Shown here piece after piece: positions 3,662 to 16,385 of a DNA stretch of 41,117 bases; position 1 is the stretch's first letter, and each line of letters opens with the position of its first letter. The translations under genes were made by a program, and so were the position numbers. The stretch is taken from the NCBI RefSeq assembly GCF_001437155.1, contig NZ_JQAR01000018.1, forward strand, positions 4,803-45,919. Direction: 5' to 3'. Origin of the DNA: Liquorilactobacillus mali (GTDB taxonomy: Bacteria; Bacillota; Bacilli; Lactobacillales; Lactobacillaceae). The notes under the pieces were generated by a model. The model was not told where the DNA came from, did not search any database, and was given only the letters and a program-made list of their open reading frames with translations.

Positions 3662-4501
3662 ATGCCAAAAAATCTCAGAAAAAAACCAATAATTAATTTT
3701 TTGATACTCATCGTAGCACTTGAAATAATAGTTATTTCCATTAATTTTTTCTACTCACCAATTGAGGTCGCTGCTGGTGGATCAACTGGTATCGCAATTT
3801 TGTTAAACGCTGCTTTTGGTATTAATACAGCAACTTCAGTACTAGTAATAAATGTCATTATGATTATTTTGGCTTTTTTCTTTTTGGAAAGAAAAGTCGT
3901 TCAAAAAATTACATTAGGTAGTTTCCTGTTACCTCTTTTCATGTATCTAACACCTAGTTTTAAGCTTGTCGATGATTCCTTTCTTGCTGTTACTATTGGC
4001 GGAATAATTTTTGCATTTGGTATCGCTATGCTTTATCGAATTGATGCTTCTAGCGGTGGAACGACCGTCCCCCCACTAATCATACGCAAATATTTTCACA
4101 TTAACACTGCGATCTCACTTCTGGTCATTGATTTTATCGTAACTTTCTTTAATATTTTTACAATGGGCTTGAATGCCTTCTTTTTAGCCGTTTTCTCGTT
4201 AATTATTACTTCTGTCGTTATGCGCTATATTGAAACAGGGCTAGATCATAAATTTCAAATTCAGGTCATGAGTCTCCATAAGACAAAGGAAATTCAAGAA
4301 ATGGCACTTAACGTTGATCATAGCTTGACCGTGTACGACGTCCGTGGTGGCTACAGTGACAATCAAAAAGAAATCCTGATGCTTGTTGTTGATAATCAAA
4401 GTTATGGCCCTTTGCTTCGTGCAATTCATGCTATTGATCCAGAGGCATTTATTATCACTTCTAATGTTGTTAAAGTCCATGGTGGCCGCTTAGGACTTTA
4501 A
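3662..4501 (+). CDS. YitT-family membrane protein with C-terminal DUF2179 domain
   Basis: A 279-residue protein with five to six hydrophobic segments in residues 10-190, including the motif GGSTGIAILLN and a second glycine-rich DASSGGTTVPPLI. These are hallmarks of the YitT family. The last 80 residues form the soluble DUF2179 domain (KTKEIQEMALNVDHSLTVYD...GGRLGL). The function of these proteins is not established; some family context suggests small-molecule transport. The start ATG has AAAGGAG eight bases upstream. The gap after glycerate kinase is 94 bases with no clear terminator, so read-through from the glycerate unit is possible. A TGGTAAAAT extended -10-like sequence near 3624 could start its own transcript. 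Confidence 0.85.
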   Translation: MPKNLRKKPIINFLILIVALEIIVISINFFYSPIEVAAGGSTGIAILLNAAFGINTATSVLVINVIMIILAFFFLERKVVQKITLGSFLLPLFMYLTPSFKLVDDSFLAVTIGGIIFAFGIAMLYRIDASSGGTTVPPLIIRKYFHINTAISLLVIDFIVTFFNIFTMGLNAFFLAVFSLIITSVVMRYIETGLDHKFQIQVMSLHKTKEIQEMALNVDHSLTVYDVRGGYSDNQKEILMLVVDNQSYGPLLRAIHAIDPEAFIITSNVVKVHGGRLGL

Positions 4502-4517
4502 CATATCCATTTTCAGC

Positions 4518-4660
4518 AAAAGAGGGAGTGTCCGTGACATAAGTTGGTAAAATTGATTATTAACACAAAATCACAAAAAAGAGCCATTTACCATGGCTTT
4601 TCAAAGTTAGACTGAAAATTTTAACTTATGAAACACGTTTATTCCGGAATAAATAGAGGA
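4518..4660. repeat. Intergenic repeat element containing GTGACATAAGT
   Basis: The stretch begins AGAGGGAGTGTCCGTGACATAAGTT (in two halves, at 4521-4545). CATAAGTT there pairs with AACTTATG near 4621-4630 to form a long stem. A smaller hairpin, AAAAGAGCCAT (4577-4587) with ATGGCTTTT (4593-4601), sits inside. The GTGACATAAGT core recurs at 41069-41079 and a related form near 22215, so this is a dispersed intergenic element. It lies between convergent genes and may also help end transcription. Confidence 0.5.
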
Positions 4661-4700
4661 GGCTTGGTCAAAATATAACTTTTGGCCAAGCCCCTTTTTA
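4661..4700. terminator. Bidirectional intrinsic terminator between yitT and hisC
   Basis: GGCTTGGTC (4661-4669) pairs with GGCCAAGCC (4684-4692), nine pairs with one G-T. It is followed by a T-run on the plus strand. It sits between the convergent yitT-like and hisC genes and can serve the plus-strand unit. On the minus strand it lies just past the hisC stop but has no long T-run. Confidence 0.75.
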
Positions 4701-4703
4701 ATT

Positions 4704-5813
4704 TCAAATAACTTCATCTAACTTACTGAGTAAGAAATCATTTTCTTCTTTCTTTCCTACAGTTATTCTCACATACTCAGGATAACCCCAAGCATCACAT
4801 TCACGAATGATGACTCCTTTTGCCATAAGCTGTTCACATATTTCTGCAGAATAAAAGCCATCAGGCAGTTTTGCAAAAATGAAATTTGAACTAGACGGTA
4901 TAACTGTAAATCCTCGTTTGTTTAAGGCGATACTCATTCGCTCACGTTCATTCGAAATAAACTCTTTTACCTTGTAAGCTTGTTTCTGATCCTCTAACAA
5001 AGCAGCCTTTGCAGCAAAAAGCCCAGTCCGATTTACACAAAATGGCTCGGTAATTGTATCAAAGGCACTAATTACAGGAGCTTGAGCCATAATATAACCA
5101 ACTCGTGCCCCAGCCATACCATAGAACTTAGAGAAAGTTCTAATAACAATTAGTTTCTTATTCTTCAGGAGCTCGACTATTTCAGGGCGTTGACCCTCAT
5201 TAATAAAGTCGGCATACGCTTCATCCAAGACAATCCATACATCTTCACCGACACTTTCAATGAATCTTTCAATCTCTCTTCTATCGTTGATTACCCCAGT
5301 TGGATTATTAGGATTACACAGCCAAATCAACTTCGTCTTATCTGAAATACTTTCTTTCATTGCCTCAAAGTCATAGGTAAAATCTGATTTCACTGGAACA
5401 TTCTTGATAACCGCCCCCATTAGAATCGAAACTTCGCGATATAAACGATATGTAGGCTTGGCAACTAGGACCTCATCACCTTCGTCTATTAACAGTCTAG
5501 CTACTGTCTCAATTACATTACCTGCCCCACTCCCTAATGCAACATTTGTGACGTCTAAGTTATTAACTTTGGCAAGTACCTCAGTCAGTTCTACATAATC
5601 ATCTTCAGGATAACGATTAATTACTTTTAAACTTTCTTTCATAGCTCTTTTGGCATTTTCATAAGGTCCAAATGGATTTTCATTTGAGCCTAACTTAACA
5701 ACCTTATCTAACCCATATCTTTTTAACACCGAAGCCTCTGTTTCACCAGCTATATACGGCCTACAATCATCAACTTGCTTTCTTAAGTTCAGACTCATTG
5801 TACTTTCTTTCAT
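4704..5813 (-). CDS. hisC: Histidinol-phosphate aminotransferase (HisC-like)
   Basis: A 369-residue PLP enzyme of fold type I, matching the HisC length of 350-370. Visible motifs are LGSNENPFGP near residue 41, CNPNNPTGV in the middle and the lysine region RTFSKFYGMAGARVGY that holds the Schiff-base lysine. HisC converts imidazole-acetol phosphate to histidinol phosphate and often also handles aromatic amino acids. I use ATG 5813, because GGAGG lies five bases upstream; the longer reading would need TTG. No other his gene is in the window, and the gene stands alone behind the terminator of the preceding catabolic operon. A broad aromatic aminotransferase role is therefore as likely as histidine synthesis. 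Confidence 0.85.
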   Translation of the reverse strand: MKESTMSLNLRKQVDDCRPYIAGETEASVLKRYGLDKVVKLGSNENPFGPYENAKRAMKESLKVINRYPEDDYVELTEVLAKVNNLDVTNVALGSGAGNVIETVARLLIDEGDEVLVAKPTYRLYREVSILMGAVIKNVPVKSDFTYDFEAMKESISDKTKLIWLCNPNNPTGVINDRREIERFIESVGEDVWIVLDEAYADFINEGQRPEIVELLKNKKLIVIRTFSKFYGMAGARVGYIMAQAPVISAFDTITEPFCVNRTGLFAAKAALLEDQKQAYKVKEFISNERERMSIALNKRGFTVIPSSSNFIFAKLPDGFYSAEICEQLMAKGVIIRECDAWGYPEYVRITVGKKEENDFLLSKLDEVI

Positions 5814-5920
5814 GACTACCTCCAAACCTTTTTTGAAAAACTACAAACTTAAAACTTAACTCACAACATTTTTCTTCTACAAGTACAGCAGCCTACTAGA
5901 GATTAGATTTTCAATTAAAA

Positions 5921-5954
5921 GGGGCTGTACCAAAGTAATAATTGGCACCTCCCC
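5921..5954 (-). terminator. Intrinsic terminator of the guanidino/GABA-type catabolic operon
   Basis: GGGGCTGTACCAA (5921-5933) and TTGGCACCTCCCC (5942-5954) form a stem with two internal mismatches and an 8-base loop. On the minus strand it is followed by TTTTAATTG. It lies about 34 bases past the aldehyde dehydrogenase stop and separates that operon from hisC. Confidence 0.7.
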
Positions 5955-5987
5955 GTTGCTGCATCTAATTCAAATTAATGAAATAAA

Positions 5988-7355
5988 TCAGTTAAACACG
6001 ATTATCTTTTCATTAGCAAATTCGTAGAGACCTAGGTCACTCATTTCCCGACCATATCCTGAATGTTTTACTCCACCAAATGGCAGCTCTGGATGCGCAC
6101 CAGAAGGTCGATTAATGAAGACTTGCCCTGTTTCAATCTCAGATGCAACAGTATGTGCTCTTTCTACATTCTGCGAATATACAGCTCCAGCTAATCCAAA
6201 GAAAGAATCATTGGCCAGTTCAATTACAGCTTCATCGTCTGGGACAACATGAACTTGTGCCACTGGTCCAAAGAATTCTTGGTAATAAGCAGGATTCTTC
6301 GGTTTTATATTAGTCAAAACAACTGGTCTGAAGAAGTAGCCATTCCCCTCGACAGGTCCACCTTGGACTAGAACATCTGCTCCATTTGCAACAGCCTCTT
6401 CAACTTGTTTTTGAAGTCCTTCAACGGCCTGTTTTGAAGATAACGGGGCTAATTCAGTATTCTCATCAAGAGGATCACCTAATTTAATATCTGTAAATTT
6501 CTGTTTTATACCTGAAATAAATTTTTCAGCAACACTTTCTTCTACAATATATCTTTTGGCCGAAGTACATACCTGGCCTGCATTTCGCAGACGCGCACCA
6601 ATCGCGTCATTTATTGCCAATTCAAGATCAGCATCATCAAGTACTACAAACACATCGCTACCGCCAAGTTCCATCGTTGACTTAATTAAACTCTTTCCGG
6701 CTTGTCCAGCAATTATACGACCAGCATCTTCAGATCCTGTTAAGGCAACGCCTTGAACTCTTTCATCTGCAATAACCTCGGCAATTTGTTCATGTGACAC
6801 AAAGAGATTTGCAAACGCACCATCATCCAAGCCGGCCTCTATCGCCAACTCTTCAAGCAATTTTGCACACCCCGCAACAATTCCTGCATGCTTAAGTACA
6901 ACCGGGTTTCCTAACAAGTAGTTAGGTGCCAAAACTCTAATAACCTGTGAATATGGGAAATTCCAAGGTTCAATGCTTGCAACAATCCCAATTGAGTGAT
7001 GTTCCAAAAGTGCTTTTTTGCCATTCGCATATTCATAAGGTTTGGGTTCGAGCAAGCTTGGTCCCTTTTCGGCATAATAACGAACCAGGTTCGCACATAG
7101 TAAAACTTCGCCTCTGCCCTCGGCAATTTTCTTTCCCATATTAATTGCAGCCTCATTTGCCAATTTATCTTGATTTTTTTCAAGTATCTCAGCAAAATTT
7201 AACAATTTATTTGCTCTCTGTGAAACTGGAACTTTTTTTTGAGTTTTATAAAACTGCTCAGCCTGGTTAAGCTTTTCTGCGATTTCATCGTCAGACATCA
7301 ATTCATATTCTTTAACTAATTTTCCAGAATATGGATTAATAACCTTATATGCCAT
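5988..7355 (-). CDS. NAD(P)-dependent aldehyde dehydrogenase, succinate-semialdehyde dehydrogenase-like
   Basis: A 455-residue cytoplasmic aldehyde dehydrogenase of the short SSADH (YneI/Sad-type) group. Key sites are PWNFP at 130-134, GVALTGSEDAG in the cofactor fold near 202-212, the general-base glutamate E229 in MELGGSD and the catalytic cysteine C263 in NAGQVCTSAKRY. The expected reaction is oxidation of an omega-semialdehyde such as succinate semialdehyde to the acid. I use ATG 7355, with GGAAGGGG upstream; a longer reading overlaps the preceding gene. It lies 16 bases after the class III aminotransferase, which would produce its substrate, and is the last gene of the operon before a terminator. 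Confidence 0.88.
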   Translation of the reverse strand: MAYKVINPYSGKLVKEYELMSDDEIAEKLNQAEQFYKTQKKVPVSQRANKLLNFAEILEKNQDKLANEAAINMGKKIAEGRGEVLLCANLVRYYAEKGPSLLEPKPYEYANGKKALLEHHSIGIVASIEPWNFPYSQVIRVLAPNYLLGNPVVLKHAGIVAGCAKLLEELAIEAGLDDGAFANLFVSHEQIAEVIADERVQGVALTGSEDAGRIIAGQAGKSLIKSTMELGGSDVFVVLDDADLELAINDAIGARLRNAGQVCTSAKRYIVEESVAEKFISGIKQKFTDIKLGDPLDENTELAPLSSKQAVEGLQKQVEEAVANGADVLVQGGPVEGNGYFFRPVVLTNIKPKNPAYYQEFFGPVAQVHVVPDDEAVIELANDSFFGLAGAVYSQNVERAHTVASEIETGQVFINRPSGAHPELPFGGVKHSGYGREMSDLGLYEFANEKIIVFN

Positions 7356-7371
7356 ATTACGACCCCTTCCG

Positions 7372-8670
7372 TTATTCAACGATACTTCTTGCGATACTTC
7401 GATCAATGATCGCTAATGCTTCATCAATAATATCAGATGAAACTACCAATGGTGGAATAAAACGAATTACATTATGAAAGACACCACAATTTAACAAAAT
7501 TAAATGTTCTTTCAGGGCTTCTTCCCTAATCTTCGCAACTAGTTCCGTATCGGGTTTATTAGTCTGAGGATCTCTAAATTCCATGCCAATCATTAACCCT
7601 AATCCGCGTACACTGCTAATCACATCATATTTATCTGCCAATAATTCTAGTTTTTCTTTGAAATATGCACCTTTCTTACGTACATTTCCTAGGAAATTAT
7701 CATCCATAATATCTAAAACGGCATTTCCCGCAGCACAAGCAAGTGGATTTCCACCAAATGTACCGCCATGTGCTCCAGGTTCCCATTGATCCATATATTC
7801 TGCTTTTCCAATTACTGCACTTAAAGGAATCCCATTTGCGATCCCCTTTGCAGAAGTCAAGACATCAGGTTGAACCCCATAGTAATCTTTTGCAAACAAG
7901 TGGCCAGTTCGTCCATAGCCGCTCTGAATTTCATCAAAAATCAACAGTATTCCATGTTCATCACAAATTGCGCGCAGTTTTTCCAAGAAGATCTTTGGGG
8001 CGGGAAGATACCCTCCTTCACCTTGTACAGGTTCAACAACGATACATGCAACTTGAGATGGTGCCAAAACACTATGGAAGAGACTCTCTAGCTGAGCAAT
8101 ACATCTTTCAACTTCAGCATCAACGCTCAGCTTAGAATTGTAAACATCTGGAAAATCAACATGATAAACAGGTGGTAATACACCCTCATAGTTTTTACGA
8201 TATTGTGCATTCGAAGCTGTCATAGCAGCTGTTAGAAGTGTCCGTCCATGGAAAGAACTTGTAAAAGCAATGATTCCATTTCTCTTTGTAACACTCAGTG
8301 CGAGTTTTACAGCCCCTTCATTAGCTTCAGCACCACTGTTAGAAAAATAAACTTTATAATCTTTTCCAACTCTCTTTACTAGTTTTTCAGCCAGTTCAAT
8401 GTATGACGGGTAATAAACAACATTGTGTCCACCATGCACAAGTTCATGTAATTGTTTTTCAACTGCTGCAACAACTTTAGGATTATTGTGCCCACAATTA
8501 ACAACACCAACACCAGCCGCAAAGTCGAGATACTGTTCGCCATCTTCAGAAGTAAGATAGACTCCTTCACCTTTTGTTACACCAAGTTTGGTTGCTCTTT
8601 TCGCAACAGGAGGCAGTACTTCTAACGAACGCTCATATAAAGACTTAACCACATTATCCACTCCATTCAC
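7372..8670 (-). CDS. Class III aminotransferase, 4-aminobutyrate aminotransferase-like
   Basis: A PLP-dependent omega-aminotransferase of up to 432 residues, the usual length of GabT, ornithine and acetylornithine aminotransferases. Motifs are FSNSGAEANEGAVKLA (109-124), SSFHGRT (138-144), VVEPVQGEGG (211-220), DEIQSGYGRTG (246-256) and the PLP lysine K275 in LTSAKGIANG. It moves an omega-amino group from a substrate such as GABA or ornithine to a 2-oxo acid, releasing a semialdehyde for the dehydrogenase encoded next. The start is uncertain: all candidates are GTG codons (8670, 8661 or 8652). The last has GGAG at the best distance, and 8670 lies three bases after the upstream stop. Similarity to GabT is the best guess, but RocD-like activity cannot be excluded. 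Confidence 0.85.
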   Translation of the reverse strand: MNGVDNVVKSLYERSLEVLPPVAKRATKLGVTKGEGVYLTSEDGEQYLDFAAGVGVVNCGHNNPKVVAAVEKQLHELVHGGHNVVYYPSYIELAEKLVKRVGKDYKVYFSNSGAEANEGAVKLALSVTKRNGIIAFTSSFHGRTLLTAAMTASNAQYRKNYEGVLPPVYHVDFPDVYNSKLSVDAEVERCIAQLESLFHSVLAPSQVACIVVEPVQGEGGYLPAPKIFLEKLRAICDEHGILLIFDEIQSGYGRTGHLFAKDYYGVQPDVLTSAKGIANGIPLSAVIGKAEYMDQWEPGAHGGTFGGNPLACAAGNAVLDIMDDNFLGNVRKKGAYFKEKLELLADKYDVISSVRGLGLMIGMEFRDPQTNKPDTELVAKIREEALKEHLILLNCGVFHNVIRFIPPLVVSSDIIDEALAIIDRSIARSIVE

Positions 8671-8673
8671 AGA

Positions 8674-9414
8674 CTACATCACTTTAGATAAAAATGATTG
8701 CGTCCGCGTATTTTTAGTTTCTTCAAAAATGTACTTTGGATTGCCACTATCAGCAATTCTTCCTTTATCCATAAATAAGACCTTATCTGCAACATTTTGA
8801 GCAAAAGACATCTCATGTGTAACAATAATCATTGTCATTCCATCAGCTGCCAACTTTTCCATTACACCTAGCACCTCTCCAACCACTTCTGGATCAAGCG
8901 CTGAAGTTGGTTCATCAAACAGCATGACTTCAGGATTCATAGCAAGTGCACGTGCAATCGCCACACGTTGCTGTTGTCCTCCAGATAATGATTGCGGATA
9001 AGCATCTGCTTTCTCCGACAAACCGACTTGCTCCAGTAATGAATGCGCATGCTCAATTGCTTTTTGGGGAGTATCCACTTTTAACTTAACGGGCGCAAAT
9101 GTAATATTTTCAAGCACCGTCTTATTTGGAAAAAGATTAAACTGCTGAAATACCATTCCCATTCTCTGTCTAAGGATCCGTAATTTATCCTTACTAGCGC
9201 TATTTAACTCCTCACCTTCAAAAACAACTTTGCCTGAATAATCACCTTCAAGTCTATTTAAGCATCTTAGCAATGTACTTTTGCCGCCACCAGATGGTCC
9301 TATCAGAACAACCTTCTCTGATTTTTTTACTGTAAACGAAATATCTTCAAGAACAACATTATCCGCGTAAGCTTTTTTCAAGTTCTTTACTTCAATAATA
9401 TTTTCTTCTGTCAT
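8674..9414 (-). CDS. Polar amino acid ABC transporter, ATP-binding subunit
   Basis: A 246-residue ATPase of the GlnQ/HisP type. The Walker A motif GPSGGGKST is at 39-47, the Q-loop FQQFNLFP near 89-96, the signature LSGGQQQR at 143-150 and Walker [14 protein letters not shown] from 163, with a switch histidine in VTHEMSFA. All catalytic residues are intact. The length fits amino acid importers. GGGAGG precedes the ATG. It follows the permease gene by 12 bases and precedes the aminotransferase by three, so transport and catabolism are encoded on one transcript. Confidence 0.93.
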
Positions 9415-9426
9415 CGGTTGTCCTCC

Positions 9427-10113
9427 CTAATTACTCTGTGCATATTTGCGTCCCATTTTTTTCTCCATCAGCTGCATCAACTGTGAAAGAACAAATGTGA
9501 GTACGAAATAAATAGCTGCCGCAACAATCAATGGAGGAACAAAATTATACAAGGTTCCACCAACTCCAAGAGCCTGTGCTGTAACCTCTTGAACACCGAT
9601 GTAAAATAACACCGAAGACTCTTTAACCAATGAGATAAATTCATTACCTAATGCAGGTAAAATATTTCTAACTGCTTGTGGCAATATAATTGAAAACATT
9701 GTCGTTTTTTCACTTAGCCCCAATGATATTCCAGCCTCGGTTTGACCTTTGGGGATTGAAATGATACCTGAACGGAAAATTTCAGCGGTATACGCACCAG
9801 AATTTATTCCAAGCGCAATTGAACCAGGGATAACCCTATCCAACCCAGAACCTAAAAACTGAATTTGTGGAACAGCTAATATATTTGAAAGTGTGTAATA
9901 AATCAGCATAACTTGAATCATTGCAGGAGTTCCACGAACAATCGCAATATAAACGCGTGCGATGTAAGAAAGAGCTTTGTGCTTTGATAGTCGGAACATT
10001 ACAAAAACCAGACCCAAAAGGATGCCGATAAATATACCGATTATTGAGATTAAAATTGTTTGTGCAGTTCCTTCAAGAAACACCGGATAGTACTGCTTTA
10101 AAAAATCGAACAT
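9427..10113 (-). CDS. Polar amino acid ABC transporter, permease subunit
   Basis: A 228-residue inner-membrane permease of the His/Glu/Gln/Arg family. It has about five hydrophobic segments, with the amino acid permease pattern YIAIVRGTPAMIQVMLIYY (residues about 54-72) and the EAA loop EAGISLGLSEKTTMFSIILPQAVRN split over residues 130-155. That loop contacts the ATPase. I use ATG 10113, with AAAGGG eight bases upstream; a GTG nine bases earlier is the alternative. Only one permease gene is present, so it probably acts as a homodimer. It lies between the binding lipoprotein and the ATPase genes. Confidence 0.92.
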   Translation of the reverse strand: MFDFLKQYYPVFLEGTAQTILISIIGIFIGILLGLVFVMFRLSKHKALSYIARVYIAIVRGTPAMIQVMLIYYTLSNILAVPQIQFLGSGLDRVIPGSIALGINSGAYTAEIFRSGIISIPKGQTEAGISLGLSEKTTMFSIILPQAVRNILPALGNEFISLVKESSVLFYIGVQEVTAQALGVGGTLYNFVPPLIVAAAIYFVLTFVLSQLMQLMEKKMGRKYAQSN

Positions 10114-10139
10114 TGTCTTCACCCTTTATTATTGTTTAT

Positions 10140-10970
10140 CTATTTACCATACTTTGACTGCAATTCTTGTGCTTGTTTAAACATCTTTGTCATTTCGCCA
10201 CTCTTTTGTAACTTTGTAATTACCTTGTTGACACGTTTAACGAGTGCTTTGTCACCCTTTCTTGCTGCAACGTTAACTGATCTTTGTTCCTTTGGAGTAT
10301 TTAACTTAACCTTTGCAATTGCATACTTGCCAGGGAACTGTTTCAAATAATTATCAGCAATTTCATTTTCAACAACAACACCATCTAATTTTCCTTGTAA
10401 GAGTTCAGTTGTTAGGCTCGTCAAAACACCTTCTGTAACAACATTACTACCCTTTAATTGATTTTTTGCGATTGTTTCTTGAGTCGTCGTCTGCTGTGCC
10501 CCTATTTGCTTTCCTTTAACCGAGGCTACTGTATTAAAACTATCTGCATCTTTCTTTTGTACCAATAGAACATTTTTGACCGTGTAGTACGATTTAGAAA
10601 ATGCAACAACTTTCCTTCGTTCGTTTGTTGAAACCATTCCTGCAAGAACTAAATCTATCTTATTACCCTTCAATTCAGAAATAAGAGATGGGAATTCTGT
10701 ATTTTCGATCTTCAGTTTTACTCCCAAATTATCTGCAATTTTTTGTGCAATCATCATATCGTACCCAACAATTTGCTTTTTACCATTCTTGACTATAGGA
10801 AATTCAAATGGTGCATAATCAGCAGATGTTCCGACAACCAGAGTTCCTTTATCTTGAATCTTCTTAACACTATTATCAGAACTTGAACTACTGCTGCAGC
10901 CAGCTAATACCAATCCAAGAGCAATCGTTGCTCCAATAACTCCCAATCCCTTTTTGAGTACTTTTTTCAT
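10140..10970 (-). CDS. Polar/basic amino acid-binding lipoprotein of ABC transporter
   Basis: A 276-residue extracellular solute-binding protein (family 3). The N-terminus is a lipoprotein signal: basic MKKVLKK, a hydrophobic stretch and the lipobox LAGC with lipidated Cys25. A serine-rich linker follows and then the two-lobe binding domain, with GTLVVGTSADYAPFEF near residue 42 and GYDMMIAQKIADNLG further on. I use ATG 10970, after GGAGGGG. The pattern fits importers of basic or polar amino acids, though the ligand cannot be read from sequence. It is encoded 17 bases after the dimethylargininase-like hydrolase, suggesting an arginine-like or other guanidino ligand. Confidence 0.92.
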   Translation of the reverse strand: MKKVLKKGLGVIGATIALGLVLAGCSSSSSSDNSVKKIQDKGTLVVGTSADYAPFEFPIVKNGKKQIVGYDMMIAQKIADNLGVKLKIENTEFPSLISELKGNKIDLVLAGMVSTNERRKVVAFSKSYYTVKNVLLVQKKDADSFNTVASVKGKQIGAQQTTTQETIAKNQLKGSNVVTEGVLTSLTTELLQGKLDGVVVENEIADNYLKQFPGKYAIAKVKLNTPKEQRSVNVAARKGDKALVKRVNKVITKLQKSGEMTKMFKQAQELQSKYGK

Positions 10971-10987
10971 AAAAACCCCTCCAATTT

Positions 10988-11827
10988 TTATACACGATGT
11001 AGTGGAAATGTCATACAATGCGGTCCGCCACCTGCTTTTAAAGTTTCAGTTATATCTAATTCAATTACCTCCATTCCATGTTCACGCAAAGCATTGTTCA
11101 CATCTTTGTTTTGTTTCAACGACAAAACTCGATGTTGACCTAGGCTTTCCAAGTTGCACCCATGCTGAAATATTGCTTCTTCAGGAACCTTAATGATCTC
11201 AATTTCCAGTTTATTCAACAGTTCCTTGAATTCGGTTGGCAGCCCCTCTTCGTAAGCTACTGCTAAATTATCATCAACTAGATTGAAACACATATCCAAA
11301 TGTAAGTATCGCGAATCCGCAGGTACAGGATATACTTGATATCCTAGAGGTTCTAACCCAGCTTTCAATTCATTGAAGCCTTCCATATTGGTCCTCTCTA
11401 TTATTCCGACTGCAATTATGTTTTCTCTTAAAAAGGCAAAATCCCCACCTTCAAAAAGTCCCTTTTTAACTTCTAAAATCTTAGGAATTCCTAGCTCAGC
11501 CATTTTTTCTTCATACGCTGCGTGCTCCGCATAACGTAACGGTTCCTTAAAACTGCCAAGTATATATCCTTCTTTTACACATCCGCCAAAATCTCTGGCA
11601 AAAACTGAATTAGTCATGCTCTCTTGTGGTGTCAATTGTTCAACTTGGACACCTGCTTCAGCATAAGCATCCAATAACTGCTGATACTCATCCAATAGTT
11701 TTGCTTTATCTAAAGGCTGATCTTGATACTTCTTTGAAATTTCATTAATTGGTGCCGCTTCATCCAGAAAAGTAGGAGGACAGGTCAAAACCTTTTTTAG
11801 TGTTGATGTTCCATTTCTTACAAACAT
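10988..11827 (-). CDS. Amidinotransferase-family hydrolase (dimethylargininase/arginine deiminase-like)
   Basis: A 279-residue enzyme of the guanidino-modifying superfamily, close to the size of dimethylarginine dimethylaminohydrolase rather than the about 400-residue arginine deiminase. The expected catalytic set is present: FARD with Asp79, EGGD at 126-129, HLD with His176, and the nucleophile Cys271 in GGGPHCMTFP. These enzymes hydrolyse the C-N bond of a guanidino group, converting arginine-like substrates to a ureido product and an amine or ammonia. It is encoded between a RocB-like hydrolase (13 bases) and an amino acid ABC importer (17 bases). I am sure of the superfamily. The substrate (arginine, methylarginine, guanidinobutyrate or another) is not known. 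Confidence 0.85.
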   Translation of the reverse strand: MFVRNGTSTLKKVLTCPPTFLDEAAPINEISKKYQDQPLDKAKLLDEYQQLLDAYAEAGVQVEQLTPQESMTNSVFARDFGGCVKEGYILGSFKEPLRYAEHAAYEEKMAELGIPKILEVKKGLFEGGDFAFLRENIIAVGIIERTNMEGFNELKAGLEPLGYQVYPVPADSRYLHLDMCFNLVDDNLAVAYEEGLPTEFKELLNKLEIEIIKVPEEAIFQHGCNLESLGQHRVLSLKQNKDVNNALREHGMEVIELDITETLKAGGGPHCMTFPLHRV

Positions 11828-11840
11828 ATCTTTTATCTCC

Positions 11841-13484
11841 TTAATCTTCCCAAATTTTTTGGGTGTAATTTCTGATTAACTTGGGTAATACCCCAAATGA
11901 ATAAGGTTTGTAAACTCTCTCCTTCCAAGTATGTGCGCCTTTACCGTAAACTCCGATATCGACTGCTGGAATATTTAATTCCCGCATTTTATCATAAGGT
12001 AGAGGATACAGCTGTTCTACAAGTGGAAAATTACTCTTCATTTTTTCTATTTCTTGTTGAGTTTCATCAATCATTAGATAACTGCTATCAGACAAATAAG
12101 GGAAAAATTGTTTCATTGTAAAATTAATTTTTTCATCGCTTTCCCTTAATACACCACTTAAGTCCTGATACACTTTGGAATCTTGTGAAATACTATTATG
12201 CGGACAAAATGGCGGTGCTAAGAATAGAACAACTTTGGCTTCGTTATCGTTAACTTGCTGATCAAGAAAGTCTATCAGCTTAAATCCAGCAGAACGCTTA
12301 TCTAATTCAGAATTATTATTAATGAAGCTTTCAATAAGTGACTGGTAATCTATTCCCAAATCACCCAAGTGATCAAGATATTCTTCGAAGCTGTATACAT
12401 TAAGCTTACGTTCATTATCAACTTTCGGAAAATTCAACTTACTAAGAAATTCATTTTCCCGTCGCTCTGCTTCTTCCACTAACTTCTTACAATCAGCCTT
12501 AACGGCAGTCTTTAACTGCTCAATTATTTCAAAAACAGGTTTCTTATAAGTGAAGGTATTGAAATACATCTCAGTTACTTTTGCAGTTTGAACATTATAA
12601 AAATCCTTTTGATCACGTAGCATCAGACATGAAGATGGCAAGATTTCTTCACCTGGAATGTCTTCAACAAAGTCAGGATTGTTGTTAATCAATAAATTAA
12701 TGCGACTAGCAATTAATGTTGAATCTATCCCAGCATAGGTATTACCCACATGGGTCTCGATTCCCTTAATATAAAAACAGGTCAATGTTTTACCAGCCGC
12801 TCCATAATAAATATATTTCTGTGTGTCACCAGCGTACTTAGGACTAATAAAATCAGTATTTATAGCCACACTATATTGTAATTTCCATTCCTCTTGTAAT
12901 CTCTTCAATTCATCCAGAGCAGCAATTACTCCGCTATGATCATTTTCTTCAACACAGTTGCCCATAAACAACAAATTACCCGTTTGAAGTTCCGGATGTT
13001 CACTGAAATATAATAAGTTGGAAATGTTGACGGCGTCTCCGCTCTTCATATCTAATGCACCTCTACCGAAAAGCCAGTCTCCCGTATTTGCATCATTTTG
13101 AATTTCACGGTCGCTATCATAACTCGAAAAATATTGTTCAAGATAATCGGGATCCAATGCCTTCCCCTTGATTGATCCAAAATCTTCCAAACCAACAGTA
13201 TCAAAGTGAGAATGATATAAGACTGTTTTCTGTGTGCCCTCTTTACCCAAAAAAGCAAAGATATTTTTTCTTCCTAGTGCATCACCCTCTATCTTCTGTG
13301 TCCAAACCCACTCAGGATGCTTTTTAAAAACTGTAAAAGTTCTCAAAATCCTTTCAAGTTTTTCTACTAAGTCAACTTCGCCATTCGTGCCATTAACACT
13401 TTTTGTGGCTACCAGTTCCCTTGTAAGCAACTCTATTCTTTGTTTCTCATCTGTAACTGTCTCCAAATCAAATGCTGAATCCAT
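11841..13484 (-). CDS. RocB-like M20-family metallohydrolase
   Basis: A 547-residue protein matching the long RocB arginine-utilisation group of the M20 peptidase family. Metal-site features are YHSHFDTVG with His91/His93 and Asp95, GRGALDMKSGD with Asp145 and MGNCVEENDHSG with Glu179/Glu180. A second metal histidine may be in HTWKERVYKP near the C-terminus. M20 enzymes remove acyl, carbamoyl or peptidyl groups from amines using two zinc or cobalt ions. RocB in Bacillus belongs to an arginine catabolic operon, but its reaction has not been settled to my knowledge. It is the first gene of the operon, behind a strong promoter, though its ribosome binding site is weak. Confidence 0.85.
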   Translation of the reverse strand: MDSAFDLETVTDEKQRIELLTRELVATKSVNGTNGEVDLVEKLERILRTFTVFKKHPEWVWTQKIEGDALGRKNIFAFLGKEGTQKTVLYHSHFDTVGLEDFGSIKGKALDPDYLEQYFSSYDSDREIQNDANTGDWLFGRGALDMKSGDAVNISNLLYFSEHPELQTGNLLFMGNCVEENDHSGVIAALDELKRLQEEWKLQYSVAINTDFISPKYAGDTQKYIYYGAAGKTLTCFYIKGIETHVGNTYAGIDSTLIASRINLLINNNPDFVEDIPGEEILPSSCLMLRDQKDFYNVQTAKVTEMYFNTFTYKKPVFEIIEQLKTAVKADCKKLVEEAERRENEFLSKLNFPKVDNERKLNVYSFEEYLDHLGDLGIDYQSLIESFINNNSELDKRSAGFKLIDFLDQQVNDNEAKVVLFLAPPFCPHNSISQDSKVYQDLSGVLRESDEKINFTMKQFFPYLSDSSYLMIDETQQEIEKMKSNFPLVEQLYPLPYDKMRELNIPAVDIGVYGKGAHTWKERVYKPYSFGVLPKLIRNYTQKIWED

Positions 13485-13514
13485 CTTATCACTTCATTCT
13501 CTTAATTTAATCGA

Positions 13515-13543
13515 ATTATAATTTATATATTTCTTTACGTCAA
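13515..13543 (-). promoter_or_regulatory. Near-consensus promoter of the rocB-like operon
   Basis: On the minus strand TTGACG (13543-13538) and TATAAT (13520-13515) are separated by exactly 17 bases. It lies about 30 bases before the rocB-like start and would drive the seven-gene operon ending at 5988. Confidence 0.75.
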
Positions 13544-13944
13544 TAAACATCACATCAGATTTATTAATACTTTTCATTCCAAAAAAGTACTTTTTTATGC
13601 GTTTTCGTTCTTTACATCCACCATAAAATGCCTTTAAATGGGGATCGTTAAAAATGGGATCGCTTACTTATTGATTTATAATAAAAAGTATTATTGACTA
13701 TTTATTTTCTTTCAAAATAAATTTTCATTATATACTTATCTTTATCAACCACTTTTTTCTATTATTCATTAGAAAATGAATAGAAAAAATGACACCTGGT
13801 GTTCCTCCTGCTTCTAACATCTTCATCTCTTAAAATTATTTTTTAACTAATCTCCAGCCAATTATCATTGCTGTTCTTGAATTATTGAGCCATCATATAT
13901 CCAAAAATTTCTTAATTCATTTTCTTATATCATTCCCTGCAAAA

Positions 13945-13978
13945 AAAAGGCCATGACATAAATCCGTCATGGCCTTTT
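13945..13978. terminator. Perfect bidirectional intrinsic terminator after gtrA
   Basis: AAAAGGCCATGAC (13945-13957) pairs completely with GTCATGGCCTTTT (13966-13978), with an 8-base loop. On the minus strand the T-run is eight long, ending transcripts from the gtrA-like gene. Confidence 0.85.
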
Positions 13979-14039
13979 AGACATTCTTAAGCTATTCACA
14001 TGCATTCAAACTGCAAAAGAATCATAATATGGAAAAAAA

Positions 14040-14456
14040 TTAATGAATTGTTTTTTTAAAAATATACCACTTGCTAAAGAAATAATTAGCAACGACAACA
14101 ATAATATTATCAATTATCTTGACCAAAAGTGAATTCCATCCTAATAATGAAATCCCCACCCAAGTAATCACAATATCCATTAATAATGTTATTGATCTAT
14201 AGAAAAAAAACGAACTTGATTCACGTGATACGTCCTTAAAGCTTCCAAATGGTGTTTTAAATACCCATAATTTATTGGAAATATATGCAACAAGAACTGA
14301 GACAAACCATGCGATCACATTTCCAATTTGATAATTTAAACCTTGTAAGTGCCAGAGCTCAAATATTCCAATATTGACTACAGTCGTTGTTCCGCCCCAA
14401 AAAAGATAAGCAATAACTTGTTTATATTTTTCAAAAAGTTCAATTAACTTATTCAT
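14040..14456 (-). CDS. GtrA-family membrane protein
   Basis: A 138-residue protein with four hydrophobic segments, typical of GtrA proteins (120-150 residues). The opening pattern YLFWGGTTTVVNIGIF and the loop YISNKLWVFK, plus the C-terminal NYFFSKWYIFKK, are family hallmarks. GtrA-like proteins are thought to help move lipid-linked sugars across the membrane for decoration of wall or surface glycans. I start at ATG 14456, with GAGG upstream. A longer reading needs TTG. No glycosyltransferase is adjacent, so its partner is elsewhere or unknown. It ends at a strong terminator. Confidence 0.85.
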   Translation of the reverse strand: MNKLIELFEKYKQVIAYLFWGGTTTVVNIGIFELWHLQGLNYQIGNVIAWFVSVLVAYISNKLWVFKTPFGSFKDVSRESSSFFFYRSITLLMDIVITWVGISLLGWNSLLVKIIDNIIVVVANYFFSKWYIFKKTIH

Positions 14457-14539
14457 AATAAACCTCAACTAAAAATTAATTAATAGTACCCGTGTAATTG
14501 TACTACAAAAACTGGCACTACCCCAGATTTATTTATAAT

Positions 14540-16333
14540 TTAGAAGGCTCCTCCACCGGATCCTCCGCCAAAGCCACCAGATGAACCTCCACTGAAGCCA
14601 CCAGAACCGCCGCTAGCAGAGCTATTATAATTTGTAATTGCAGAGCCTACACTTGTTGTTAATGCGTCGTTAAAGTTCCAATTTCCACCAATCAAAAGCG
14701 GATAATAAACTCCCATTGTGGAAAGTTCAGCCGCATCAAAATTTATTCTTAGTGCAGCTATTACTTTACTTGCTAATCCTAATGAGACTGCATATGGTAA
14801 TATTTGTTCCCACAATACCAAATCTCCAACTTTTTTCATATCAAAATTTCCAATATCATCAAGCATTTTTCTAAAGCACATAATTTGGTACTTTAATTCT
14901 TTCCCCTTTTCAGAATATAAAGAATGGGAGCGATAATAGTGAATACAGGAAAATAAAAACACAGTATACAGTATCGCCAATAATCCACACATAAGAAAGT
15001 TATTTGCAAATAAAAATAATGTGCCAACGCCCACTAACGTTACTGCAATCAACCATGCCAAAGCTTTCTTCCTTAAACTTATATTCTGATTATCCTTATA
15101 TCCCGTTTTATCAGCGGCTTTTACAATATTTTTCTGCCATAAACAATATGCATCAAAAAGTTGCTTTCCCCCAGTTCCTTTTTTCCCAAACCTCTTTAAT
15201 TCGGACAACGTGAACTGATTTCCATCTCCCACGTTATTAAACATTTCCCTGAAGATACCGTAGTTATGAATGAGCTTAATATCTCTCAAAATAATATTAA
15301 AATCCTTCTTCTTTTCACTTAATTCTTTTACTTCGATTTGATGGCTAGCTGCCCGCTTTAATATAAATGCACTAAAAGCAGCAGTATCCGGTTTCTTATT
15401 CCTATATATGACTTGAGTAACTTCAGGTGAAAGTCGTGGAATTTCATACGAATGAACAATTGGGCGCTTCTTTTTACCTTTATTTCCGGGATTCATGTAA
15501 CTCCACAAAAACCATAAAGCAATCATGATAATCATAAGAACGAACATAATCTTTTTAAAAAATACTTTATTCTGTTCTTCACGTTTTCTTTTTTCATTTG
15601 CTTCTAAAGCTAATGCACGTTCTTTTCTTTGAATAGCCTTTAAAGCATTTTGCTCACTAGTATTTTGATTTAATGCAGTCACGCTCACTGGAAAAACAAT
15701 ATGACTCTCGACAAAAGTATTAGCGGGATTCCTTTTCAAGGATATTTCTACAGTTCCTTGTTTCTTGCTTACTGTCGTCTTCCCACTTAAATCACCGTGC
15801 GTCCACGCCTGCAGTCTTGTGATATTTTTTTTGGGTAGTTCAATATTGATCTTGACATTATTGAGTGCAACATCCCATTTACTTCCGATTATTTTCCAAT
15901 TCAGTTCAGCTGTATCCTTATAATTTTTGATTACACCATGTAACAAATAACGATAGACAAAGGTCACTTCCTTGTCCTCGACACTGTGATAAACTTTTAA
16001 TTTTAATTGGCTGGTCGACTTCGTCTGAGAAAAAGTATTATTGATTTTCTTATCAGATAATGGAATTTTTTCTACATTACCGTCCTCAATTGCTTCAACA
16101 CTAACATCAGAAACACCGTCAATTCCCTTAATATCCTGATTATAGTAGACACCATGAAAAGAGCCATCAAAATCATACCTTATCTTCTGCGTTAACCAAA
16201 CGCTGCCATCCTTTTGAACAGCTGCATTCACATCATAGTTTTTAATATCATAACTATCAGCATTGGCATTAATGAACCCCATTATAATTGCTATAGCAAA
16301 AGTCAAGACCGATATTAGTACTTTTTCATACAT
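14540..16333 (-). CDS. DUF2207 membrane protein with glycine/serine-rich C-terminus
   Basis: A protein of about 597 residues with an N-terminal signal or anchor (VLISVLTFAIAIIMGF). An extracellular beta-rich domain of about 230 residues follows (SYDIKNYDVNAAVQKDGSVW... and NYKDTAELNWKIIG). A transmembrane helix lies near FVLMIIMIALWFLW. A cytoplasmic domain, two more helices (WLIAVTLVGVGTLFLF, LLAILYTVFLFSCIHYY) and a tail of GGSGGFSGGSSGG type complete it. This layout is the DUF2207 family, whose role is unknown. The start is unclear: ATG 16333 has GGGAG too close, and a TTG at 16375 with GGGGGAG inside the frame is the alternative. It follows the oxidoreductase gene by as little as 10 bases. 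Confidence 0.82.
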   Translation of the reverse strand: MYEKVLISVLTFAIAIIMGFINANADSYDIKNYDVNAAVQKDGSVWLTQKIRYDFDGSFHGVYYNQDIKGIDGVSDVSVEAIEDGNVEKIPLSDKKINNTFSQTKSTSQLKLKVYHSVEDKEVTFVYRYLLHGVIKNYKDTAELNWKIIGSKWDVALNNVKINIELPKKNITRLQAWTHGDLSGKTTVSKKQGTVEISLKRNPANTFVESHIVFPVSVTALNQNTSEQNALKAIQRKERALALEANEKRKREEQNKVFFKKIMFVLMIIMIALWFLWSYMNPGNKGKKKRPIVHSYEIPRLSPEVTQVIYRNKKPDTAAFSAFILKRAASHQIEVKELSEKKKDFNIILRDIKLIHNYGIFREMFNNVGDGNQFTLSELKRFGKKGTGGKQLFDAYCLWQKNIVKAADKTGYKDNQNISLRKKALAWLIAVTLVGVGTLFLFANNFLMCGLLAILYTVFLFSCIHYYRSHSLYSEKGKELKYQIMCFRKMLDDIGNFDMKKVGDLVLWEQILPYAVSLGLASKVIAALRINFDAAELSTMGVYYPLLIGGNWNFNDALTTSVGSAITNYNSSASGGSGGFSGGSSGGFGGGSGGGAF

Positions 16334-16385
16334 TCTCCCTGTATTTTTTCGCGTATTCAGTAGAATCTCCCCCAAAATATATTTT

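Follow-up and report, generated by a model that had tools for sequence, protein, structure and literature searches.

What purpose does a lactobacillus find for an operon that joins a dimethylargininase (DDAH)-like hydrolase to a RocB-like metallohydrolase, an amino acid importer and enzymes resembling those of 4-aminobutyrate (GABA) metabolism? The cluster that raises this question occupies positions 5988-13484 of a 41,117-nucleotide stretch of the Liquorilactobacillus mali genome (contig NZ_JQAR01000018.1 of assembly GCF_001437155.1; source genome 2.44 Mb), and the whole of this stretch is termed the window below. A preliminary description, made from the DNA letters alone, proposed a single route of import, deimination, decarbamoylation, transamination and oxidation, for example from 4-guanidinobutyrate to succinate, and named arginine and methylarginine as simpler alternatives. 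The analysis presented here shows that the seven genes are a real, conserved operon. The preferred reading, which we hold to be about equally likely to be right or wrong, is that the operon degrades arginine by way of citrulline to 2-hydroxyglutarate.

A conserved operon of seven genes

The seven genes, all on the minus strand, encode, in order of transcription, a RocB-like M20 metallohydrolase, a short pentein hydrolase, the binding protein, permease and ATPase of an amino acid ABC importer, a class III ω-aminotransferase and a succinate semialdehyde dehydrogenase (SSADH)-like aldehyde dehydrogenase (ALDH). The intergenic gaps are 13, 17, 26, 12, 3 and 16 bases, exactly as the earlier range of 3-26 bases had it. 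These sizes assume ATG starts for the binding protein, permease and ALDH (the open reading frames (ORFs) of the first and last extend to 11018 and 7406, respectively, and a GTG at 10122 is a possible start for the permease). The family assignments were likewise borne out by Pfam for the hydrolase (121.6 and 80.9 bits against families of DDAH and arginine deiminase (ADI), DDAH being the best match), binding protein (115.8 bits), permease (81.4), ATPase (134.2), class III aminotransferase (426.8) and ALDH (415.9). The identity of RocB, whose M20 score of 24.0 bits falls slightly under the gathering cut-off of 24.6, is supported by its predicted fold.

Matches to the hydrolase were found in 16 of 301 genomes of the family and 17 of 345 of the order (both at E 1e-20), and in 77 of 398 genomes of the class (E 1e-25), the last mostly near 30-35% identity. 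The family matches comprise 13 of the 14 same-genus genomes listed and three genomes from two other genera. Twelve of these 13 same-genus genomes keep the order RocB-hydrolase-binding protein-permease-ATPase, one of them with a split RocB; the class III aminotransferase and ALDH both come next in ten, the aminotransferase without ALDH in one and neither in one. One genome of the genus (L036) has the hydrolase without the remaining operon genes. The arrangement, kept in 12 of 13 genomes, is therefore not a product of chance, and the genes that the preliminary description had linked do occur together in relatives. In Liquorilactobacillus sucicola (L104:6673-8321) RocB is split into two ORFs, while relatives have intact copies.

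The proposed guanidino and ureido steps

The hydrolase (10988-11827, minus strand) is a single-domain short pentein of 279 amino acids. Its catalytic residues had been correctly named as Asp79, His176 and Cys271, to which Glu126 and Asp178 are added here as parts of the active site. The conservation of these residues was assessed in an alignment of 96 rows, consisting of the window, 15 order-level loci and 80 named loci (those ranked highest among 153 confirmed hydrolase loci), in which, as in the locus clusters, ORFs may start upstream of the true start. Asp79, Glu126 and His176 are each present in 96 of 96 rows, and Asp178 and Cys271 each in 95 (L069 has Met for Asp178; L068 ends before Cys271). 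Both aspartates are also kept in all 27 more distant Bacilli sequences. Arg98 and Arg145, which align with arginines of ADI and DDAH, are invariant (96/96 each). The two aspartates lie in the motifs F-A-R-D and H-L-D, a pair that also occurs in both solved ADIs in the alignment, whereas FVED and HLK stand at these places in the aligned Pseudomonas aeruginosa DDAH, and the Asp79 position is Asn in cyanobacterial ArgZ. To our knowledge HLK holds for DDAH beyond the P. aeruginosa enzyme. Retention of the FARD/HLD aspartate pair thus points to conversion of a guanidino to a ureido group, with no further step by the hydrolase. The available portion of PMC9007349 states that guanidino-specific enzymes retain both aspartates and that the putative citrullinase CtlX carries Asn.

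The AlphaFold2 model of the hydrolase (pLDDT 96.2) is closest to the ArgZ N-domain (TM 0.86, 22% identity), NnhA, AgrE and DDAH, with ADI lower. The title of the solved ArgZ variant N71S states a covalently bound intermediate. A dihydrolase without need of RocB was considered and ruled out, as the ArgZ Asn (position 71) is Asp in all 96 rows; its replacement by Asp79 implies that a second enzyme is needed for the ureido group. The arginine dihydrolase model of NCBIfam gives the hydrolase 64.3 bits against a cut-off of 450. The arcA model is not passed either (53.4 vs 489.1 bits; 279 vs about 400 amino acids), and no protein in the source genome exceeds the arcA cut-off, both weak matches to the model being the operon hydrolase. 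The best NCBIfam match is the model DdahMtb, which we take to represent Mycobacterium tuberculosis Rv2323c.

It is highly improbable that the enzyme is a true DDAH that turns methylarginines into citrulline and methylamines, the product then following the path proposed below for arginine. Although the top Pfam match is to DDAH, the HLD motif in place of HLK and the low scores against the three DDAH equivalogs, all far below cut-off (99.6/300, 74.5/340 and 49.9/450 bits), led us to reject this assignment. Of the two simpler substrates named earlier, methylarginine is accordingly disfavoured by the HLD motif, and arginine is now the first choice. The hydrolase is best read from its sequence as a putative ADI that converts arginine to citrulline.

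The binding protein (10140-10970, a family 3 lipoprotein), permease (9427-10113) and GlnQ-like ATPase (8674-9414, by profile matches) of the importer are all present together on the minus strand. In the binding protein, Arg134 is found in 35 of 35 rows and the position of Glu217 is Glu in 20 and Asp in 15; these two residues presumably hold the α-carboxylate and α-amino group, respectively, in this fold. Its nearest matches among solved structures are 4i62, 4ymx and 4h5f, which we take to be arginine-bound. The binding protein appears to keep an α-amino-acid clamp, and its predicted ligand is most likely arginine.

RocB (11841-13484, minus strand) is the candidate for cleavage of the ureido group, presumably that of citrulline. 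His93, Asp95, Asp145, Glu179, Glu180, Asp211 and His518, which we take to be the canonical metal ligands and catalytic Glu of M20 enzymes, are invariant (35/35 rows), and a fold search with the AlphaFold2 model (pLDDT 92.9) retrieves M20 enzymes. In the accessible part of a review RocB is labelled 'probable citrullinase' (PMC4813224), which is treated here as a published guess.

The genes that accompany the hydrolase in relatives bear directly on this step. Within 9 kb of the hydrolase, RocB is found at 56 of the 80 named loci. Eight others, in Moritella and Psychromonas, have CtlX and ornithine cyclodeaminase (OCD), and three have ornithine transcarbamylase (OTC) and carbamate kinase, none of them with RocB; in the one member of each group that was scanned, the scores were 424.3 over 334 bits for CtlX, 459.3 over 350 for OCD, 346 over 280.85 for OTC and 407.7 over 358.25 for carbamate kinase. 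In Propionispira arboris (L174, 9980-15032) the hydrolase homologue is 48% identical and perhaps acts on a different guanidino compound; it is accompanied by an M20 carbamoylase (287.5 over 204) and a binding protein of the NMT1/THI5 type. At two Lentilactobacillus loci (L108:6554-9709 and L109:6526-9732) an AguB-like amidase (447.4 and 446.5 over 410.25), located after the importer, replaces RocB, and the importer is divergent from the hydrolase gene. The other ten RocB-free named loci have no ureido-cleaving partner in view, and in eight of these (not L147 or L172) the contig stops at most 2.5 kb from the hydrolase. Among the 15 order-level loci, two of which (L055 and L056) repeat named loci (L135 and L145), nine have OTC and/or carbamate kinase and three RocB; a YfcC-family carrier stands beside one OTC-type cluster (L062). 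These alternative partners make a ureido intermediate much firmer than a guess, and suggest that a single family of deiminases works with five different systems for ureido cleavage. The second enzyme step in L. mali is best read, on this sequence evidence, as putative ureido hydrolysis by RocB. The OTC of the source genome was considered as a member of an ADI pathway and rejected, as it belongs to argCJBDF, of which it is the last gene.

Proposed steps beyond citrulline

There is support from sequence and context for the genes, for the way they are coupled and for the guanidino/ureido logic, whereas all steps beyond citrulline are ones that we infer. The class III enzyme (7372-8670, minus strand) resembles GABA aminotransferases, scoring 429 bits with TIGR00700, below the cut-off of 506.65, while the best 25 of its 69 NCBIfam matches do not include the ornithine aminotransferase (OAT) model, TIGR01885. 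Arg143, Glu218, Arg403 and Lys275 are each present in 22 of 22 rows. The place of OAT Tyr85, located through the aligned GabT structure entry I50Q, is taken by Val54 in L. mali (GabT Ile50), and across the 22 rows by Val in 20 and Ile in one, with a gap in one. As stated in the portion available of one review, Tyr or Ile at this position decides between ornithine and GABA (PMC13327489). With Val or Ile instead of the OAT Tyr, the expected substrate is an ω-amino acid lacking an α-amino group, hence the proposal that the α-amino group is removed and the product reduced first. The ALDH (5988-7355, minus strand) scores highest with SSADH models, below their equivalog cut-offs (438/730 and 395.4/855).

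Two partners overlooked in the preliminary description, a HisC-like aminotransferase and a D-2-hydroxyacid dehydrogenase (2HADH), could carry out such a removal and reduction. The HisC-like protein (4704-5813, minus strand), the proposed α-aminotransferase of the route, passes TIGR01141 (324.5 over 276.55), and its gene is a second copy outside the his operon. The his operon of the source genome has its own hisC, 34% identical to this copy, and a role as a mere histidine gene was rejected on that account. In Ligilactobacillus ruminis (L034/L105) the HisC-like gene lies within the operon. The source genome has a 2HADH homologue elsewhere (C21, L191; 52% identity, open stretch of 337 codons), and in Agrilactobacillus 2HADH follows ALDH (L038; L110 and L111 by profile). 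L150 and L171 have an α-aminotransferase of another family, PRK06348 (602.9 over 549 in L150), accompanied in L171 by a distant 2HADH (28%).

The coupling of these genes was scored at 76 loci, in runs of same-strand genes with gaps below 200 bases, some of which (for example L102, L104, L105 and L148) are shortened by spurious ORF overlaps. The sample is the 80 named loci minus L126, L128, L132 and L152, where the hydrolase frame was lost in the ORF/cluster filter, although all four are among the 96 alignment rows. RocB occurs in 52 runs, the HisC-like enzyme in 37, the PRK06348 α-aminotransferase in two, 2HADH in 34, the class III aminotransferase in 16, ALDH in nine, an Fe-type alcohol dehydrogenase (ADH) in four, a YqhD-like ADH in one and an AEC carrier in 14. 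An α-aminotransferase accompanies 2HADH in 31 of 34 runs (Fisher p 1e-10), and ALDH or ADH is found solely alongside the class III aminotransferase (14/14 runs; Fisher p 2e-13), both values being uncorrected for kinship. The class III aminotransferase lacks an ALDH or ADH in two of its 16 runs (L101 and L171).

In the arginine route put together from these components, the importer would take up arginine, the short ADI-like hydrolase would convert it to citrulline and ammonia, and RocB would split the ureido group (to ammonia and CO2), giving an ornithine-level amine. The HisC-like enzyme would remove the α-amino group and 2HADH would reduce the resulting 2-oxo acid, leading to 5-amino-2-hydroxypentanoate, with these two reactions either before or after RocB. 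A 2-oxo acid at the ornithine level would cyclize, so that α-deamination would be chemically easier at the citrulline level. The GABA-type aminotransferase would then convert the ω-amine to an aldehyde, which the SSADH-like enzyme would oxidize to 2-hydroxyglutarate. In other species an ADH would instead reduce the aldehyde to 2,5-dihydroxypentanoate, or the pathway would end earlier, with the hydroxy acid perhaps exported by an AEC-type carrier. Import, deimination, decarbamoylation, ω-transamination and oxidation keep their places in the single route first proposed, its ureido intermediate backed by the alternative partners, with 4-guanidinobutyrate as the substrate less supported.

Three other assignments of the downstream enzymes have to be weighed. 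In the first, on the unlikely side in our view, the two initial steps are the same and ornithine is δ-transaminated to glutamate semialdehyde, which the ALDH oxidizes to glutamate, the HisC-like enzyme and 2HADH serving otherwise. This is the simplest arginine route; OCD or OTC beside the hydrolase in relatives points to an ornithine product, and the Bacillus roc logic, as given in the part available of PMC4813224, is of the same kind. The class III enzyme, with Val or Ile at the ornithine-selecting Tyr place in 21 of 22 rows, and with GABA-type rather than OAT scores, argues against it, as does the preference of the ALDH for SSADH models, and the α-aminotransferase and 2HADH would stay unexplained.

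The route from 4-guanidinobutyrate through 4-ureidobutyrate, GABA and succinate semialdehyde to succinate, as the preliminary description proposed, is improbable. It is at odds with the α-amino-acid clamp of the binding protein, with Arg98 and Arg145 of the hydrolase, with the OTC/carbamate kinase and CtlX/OCD partners, and with the α-aminotransferase and 2HADH in the runs; as a GABA route has no use for a HisC-like aminotransferase, present in 37 of 76 runs, this substrate is less likely. The GABA-type aminotransferase and SSADH-like ALDH do accord with it, as do the carbamoylase or AguB-like partners at three loci, and the NMT1-type binding protein in Propionispira hints at another guanidino substrate for some homologues.

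Alternatively, the guanidino substrate could be 2-oxo- or 2-hydroxyarginine, with the HisC-like enzyme and 2HADH acting ahead of the hydrolase. The presence of 2HADH adjoining the hydrolase even at OTC-type loci speaks for this order of events; nevertheless OTC and CtlX/OCD lead one to expect citrulline and ornithine, and the importer clamp suits an α-amino acid, though uptake could precede deamination. We regard this alternative as quite unlikely.

Several observations weigh against the arginine route itself. No equivalog cut-off is passed by any of the seven proteins among the NCBIfam matches listed, at most 25 for each of three of them. The nearest solved folds of RocB are carboxypeptidase G2, DapE and ArgE, and no carbamoylase (HyuC, AllC or β-ureidopropionase) is among its best 50 PDB fold matches; the AguB-like partner in Lentilactobacillus suits carbamoylputrescine as well as citrulline. 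The ureido-cleaving partner changed at least three times on a quick 102-row tree, which retained eight of the 27 distant Bacilli rows and omitted L055 and L056 as repeats; three is a floor, since L108 and L109 carried no partner label there, their AguB-like gene having been found later. With so few changes the loci are far from independent, though the exchange is real. At six Trichococcus loci the run consists of the hydrolase and RocB alone. The 2HADH lies outside the operon in the source genome, and that of Agrilactobacillus is distant (30-33%). In addition, 2HADH is present at six of the nine OTC-type order-level loci and an α-aminotransferase was called at none of these; four OTC-type 2HADHs compared are 46-51% like the RocB-type enzyme, and its role may therefore differ. 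Finally, the HisC-like gene begins 174 bases beyond the ALDH, behind a stable hairpin (5900-5970, minus strand; -23.1 kcal/mol, z -3.63), a possible terminator or attenuator that may separate the gene from the operon.

Two further observations concern 2HADH-bearing loci. L059-L066 are OTC-type clusters, six of the eight having a 2HADH of unexplained role. In L055, from a Lactobacillales metagenome-assembled genome (the same locus as L135), the hydrolase, HisC-like enzyme and 2HADH are joined by an Asp/Glu/hydantoin racemase, a member of the polysaccharide deacetylase family and a protein resembling argininosuccinate lyase.

The promoter that the preliminary description placed ahead of the operon is represented by a TTGACG-17-TATAAT element (13515-13543, minus strand), identified by consensus match only, that agrees with the consensus at 11 of 12 positions, ends 30 bases from rocB and is the sole 11/12 site within 4500-14200. 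Promoter-like sites matching at nine or more of the 12 positions are not enriched (21 observed vs 30.2 expected from shuffled sequence). The hairpin at 5900-5970 is absent from the sites of the pattern scan, and nothing in the window scores above the gathering threshold of an Rfam family. Upstream of the operon lie genes for a GtrA-family protein (14040-14468) and a DUF2207 membrane protein (14540-16375, minus strand).

Relation to known arginine pathways

No description of this combination of steps was found in searches of the open-licence PMC literature, as far as its texts were available. The passages available of a proteome study of the congeners L. nagelii and L. hordei describe an ADI pathway with an unclear fate of carbamoyl phosphate (PMC6413804), and argininic acid is listed among uremic solutes in an article that, in the parts seen, gives no hydroxy-acid route (PMC8745165). 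We tentatively propose, while thinking the idea somewhat more apt to fail than to hold, that Liquorilactobacillus, Ligilactobacillus, Streptococcus equinus and its kin, Lachnospiraceae and selenomonads share an undescribed arginine fermentation, via 5-amino-2-hydroxypentanoate to 2-hydroxyglutarate (with ALDH), 2,5-dihydroxypentanoate (with ADH) or an exported hydroxy acid (with AEC), which would serve as nitrogen source, acid neutralizer and electron sink. If true, lactobacilli without arcA would have a means of using arginine, the function of RocB would be in part explained, and unmeasured arginine-derived hydroxy acids would be predicted in fermented drinks and the rumen. For lactobacilli and gut anaerobes alike, the proposal puts forward a new pathway of nitrogen and redox metabolism that can be tested, one where unrelated enzymes seem interchangeable, and it makes function prediction testable for many proteins annotated as 'DDAH'.

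The ADI pathway (ArcA-ArcB-ArcC-ArcD) likewise begins with arginine deimination, and some relatives pair the operon hydrolase with OTC and/or carbamate kinase, L062 also with its YfcC carrier. In contrast to that pathway, the hydrolase of the operon, at 279 amino acids, fails the arcA model, and the ureido group would be hydrolysed rather than phosphorolysed, so that no ATP would come from the ureido step. The Bacillus roc arginase pathway, as presented in the part available of PMC4813224, shares RocB, an aminotransferase and an aldehyde dehydrogenase. The operon differs in having deimination in place of arginase (none is encoded in the operon, to which the search for one was confined), a GABA-type aminotransferase and an SSADH-like ALDH, with an α-aminotransferase and 2HADH added in relatives. 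Citrulline utilization through CtlX, in the account available (PMC9007349), has its counterpart in Moritella and Psychromonas, where genes for CtlX and OCD neighbour this hydrolase. The L. mali operon uses RocB, whereas CtlX is an ADI relative with Asn for both Asp. Cyanobacterial arginine dihydrolase ArgZ/AgrE provides the nearest solved fold, although the operon hydrolase has Asp79 for the ArgZ Asn and is a single domain alone. M. tuberculosis Rv2323c is also annotated as DDAH, lies in an arginine-induced roc cluster and is needed for growth on arginine, according to the sections available of PMC4569260, but its partner genes differ and its enzyme activity is putative there. The ADI, roc, CtlX and ArgZ routes thus each share one part with the route proposed for the L. 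mali operon.

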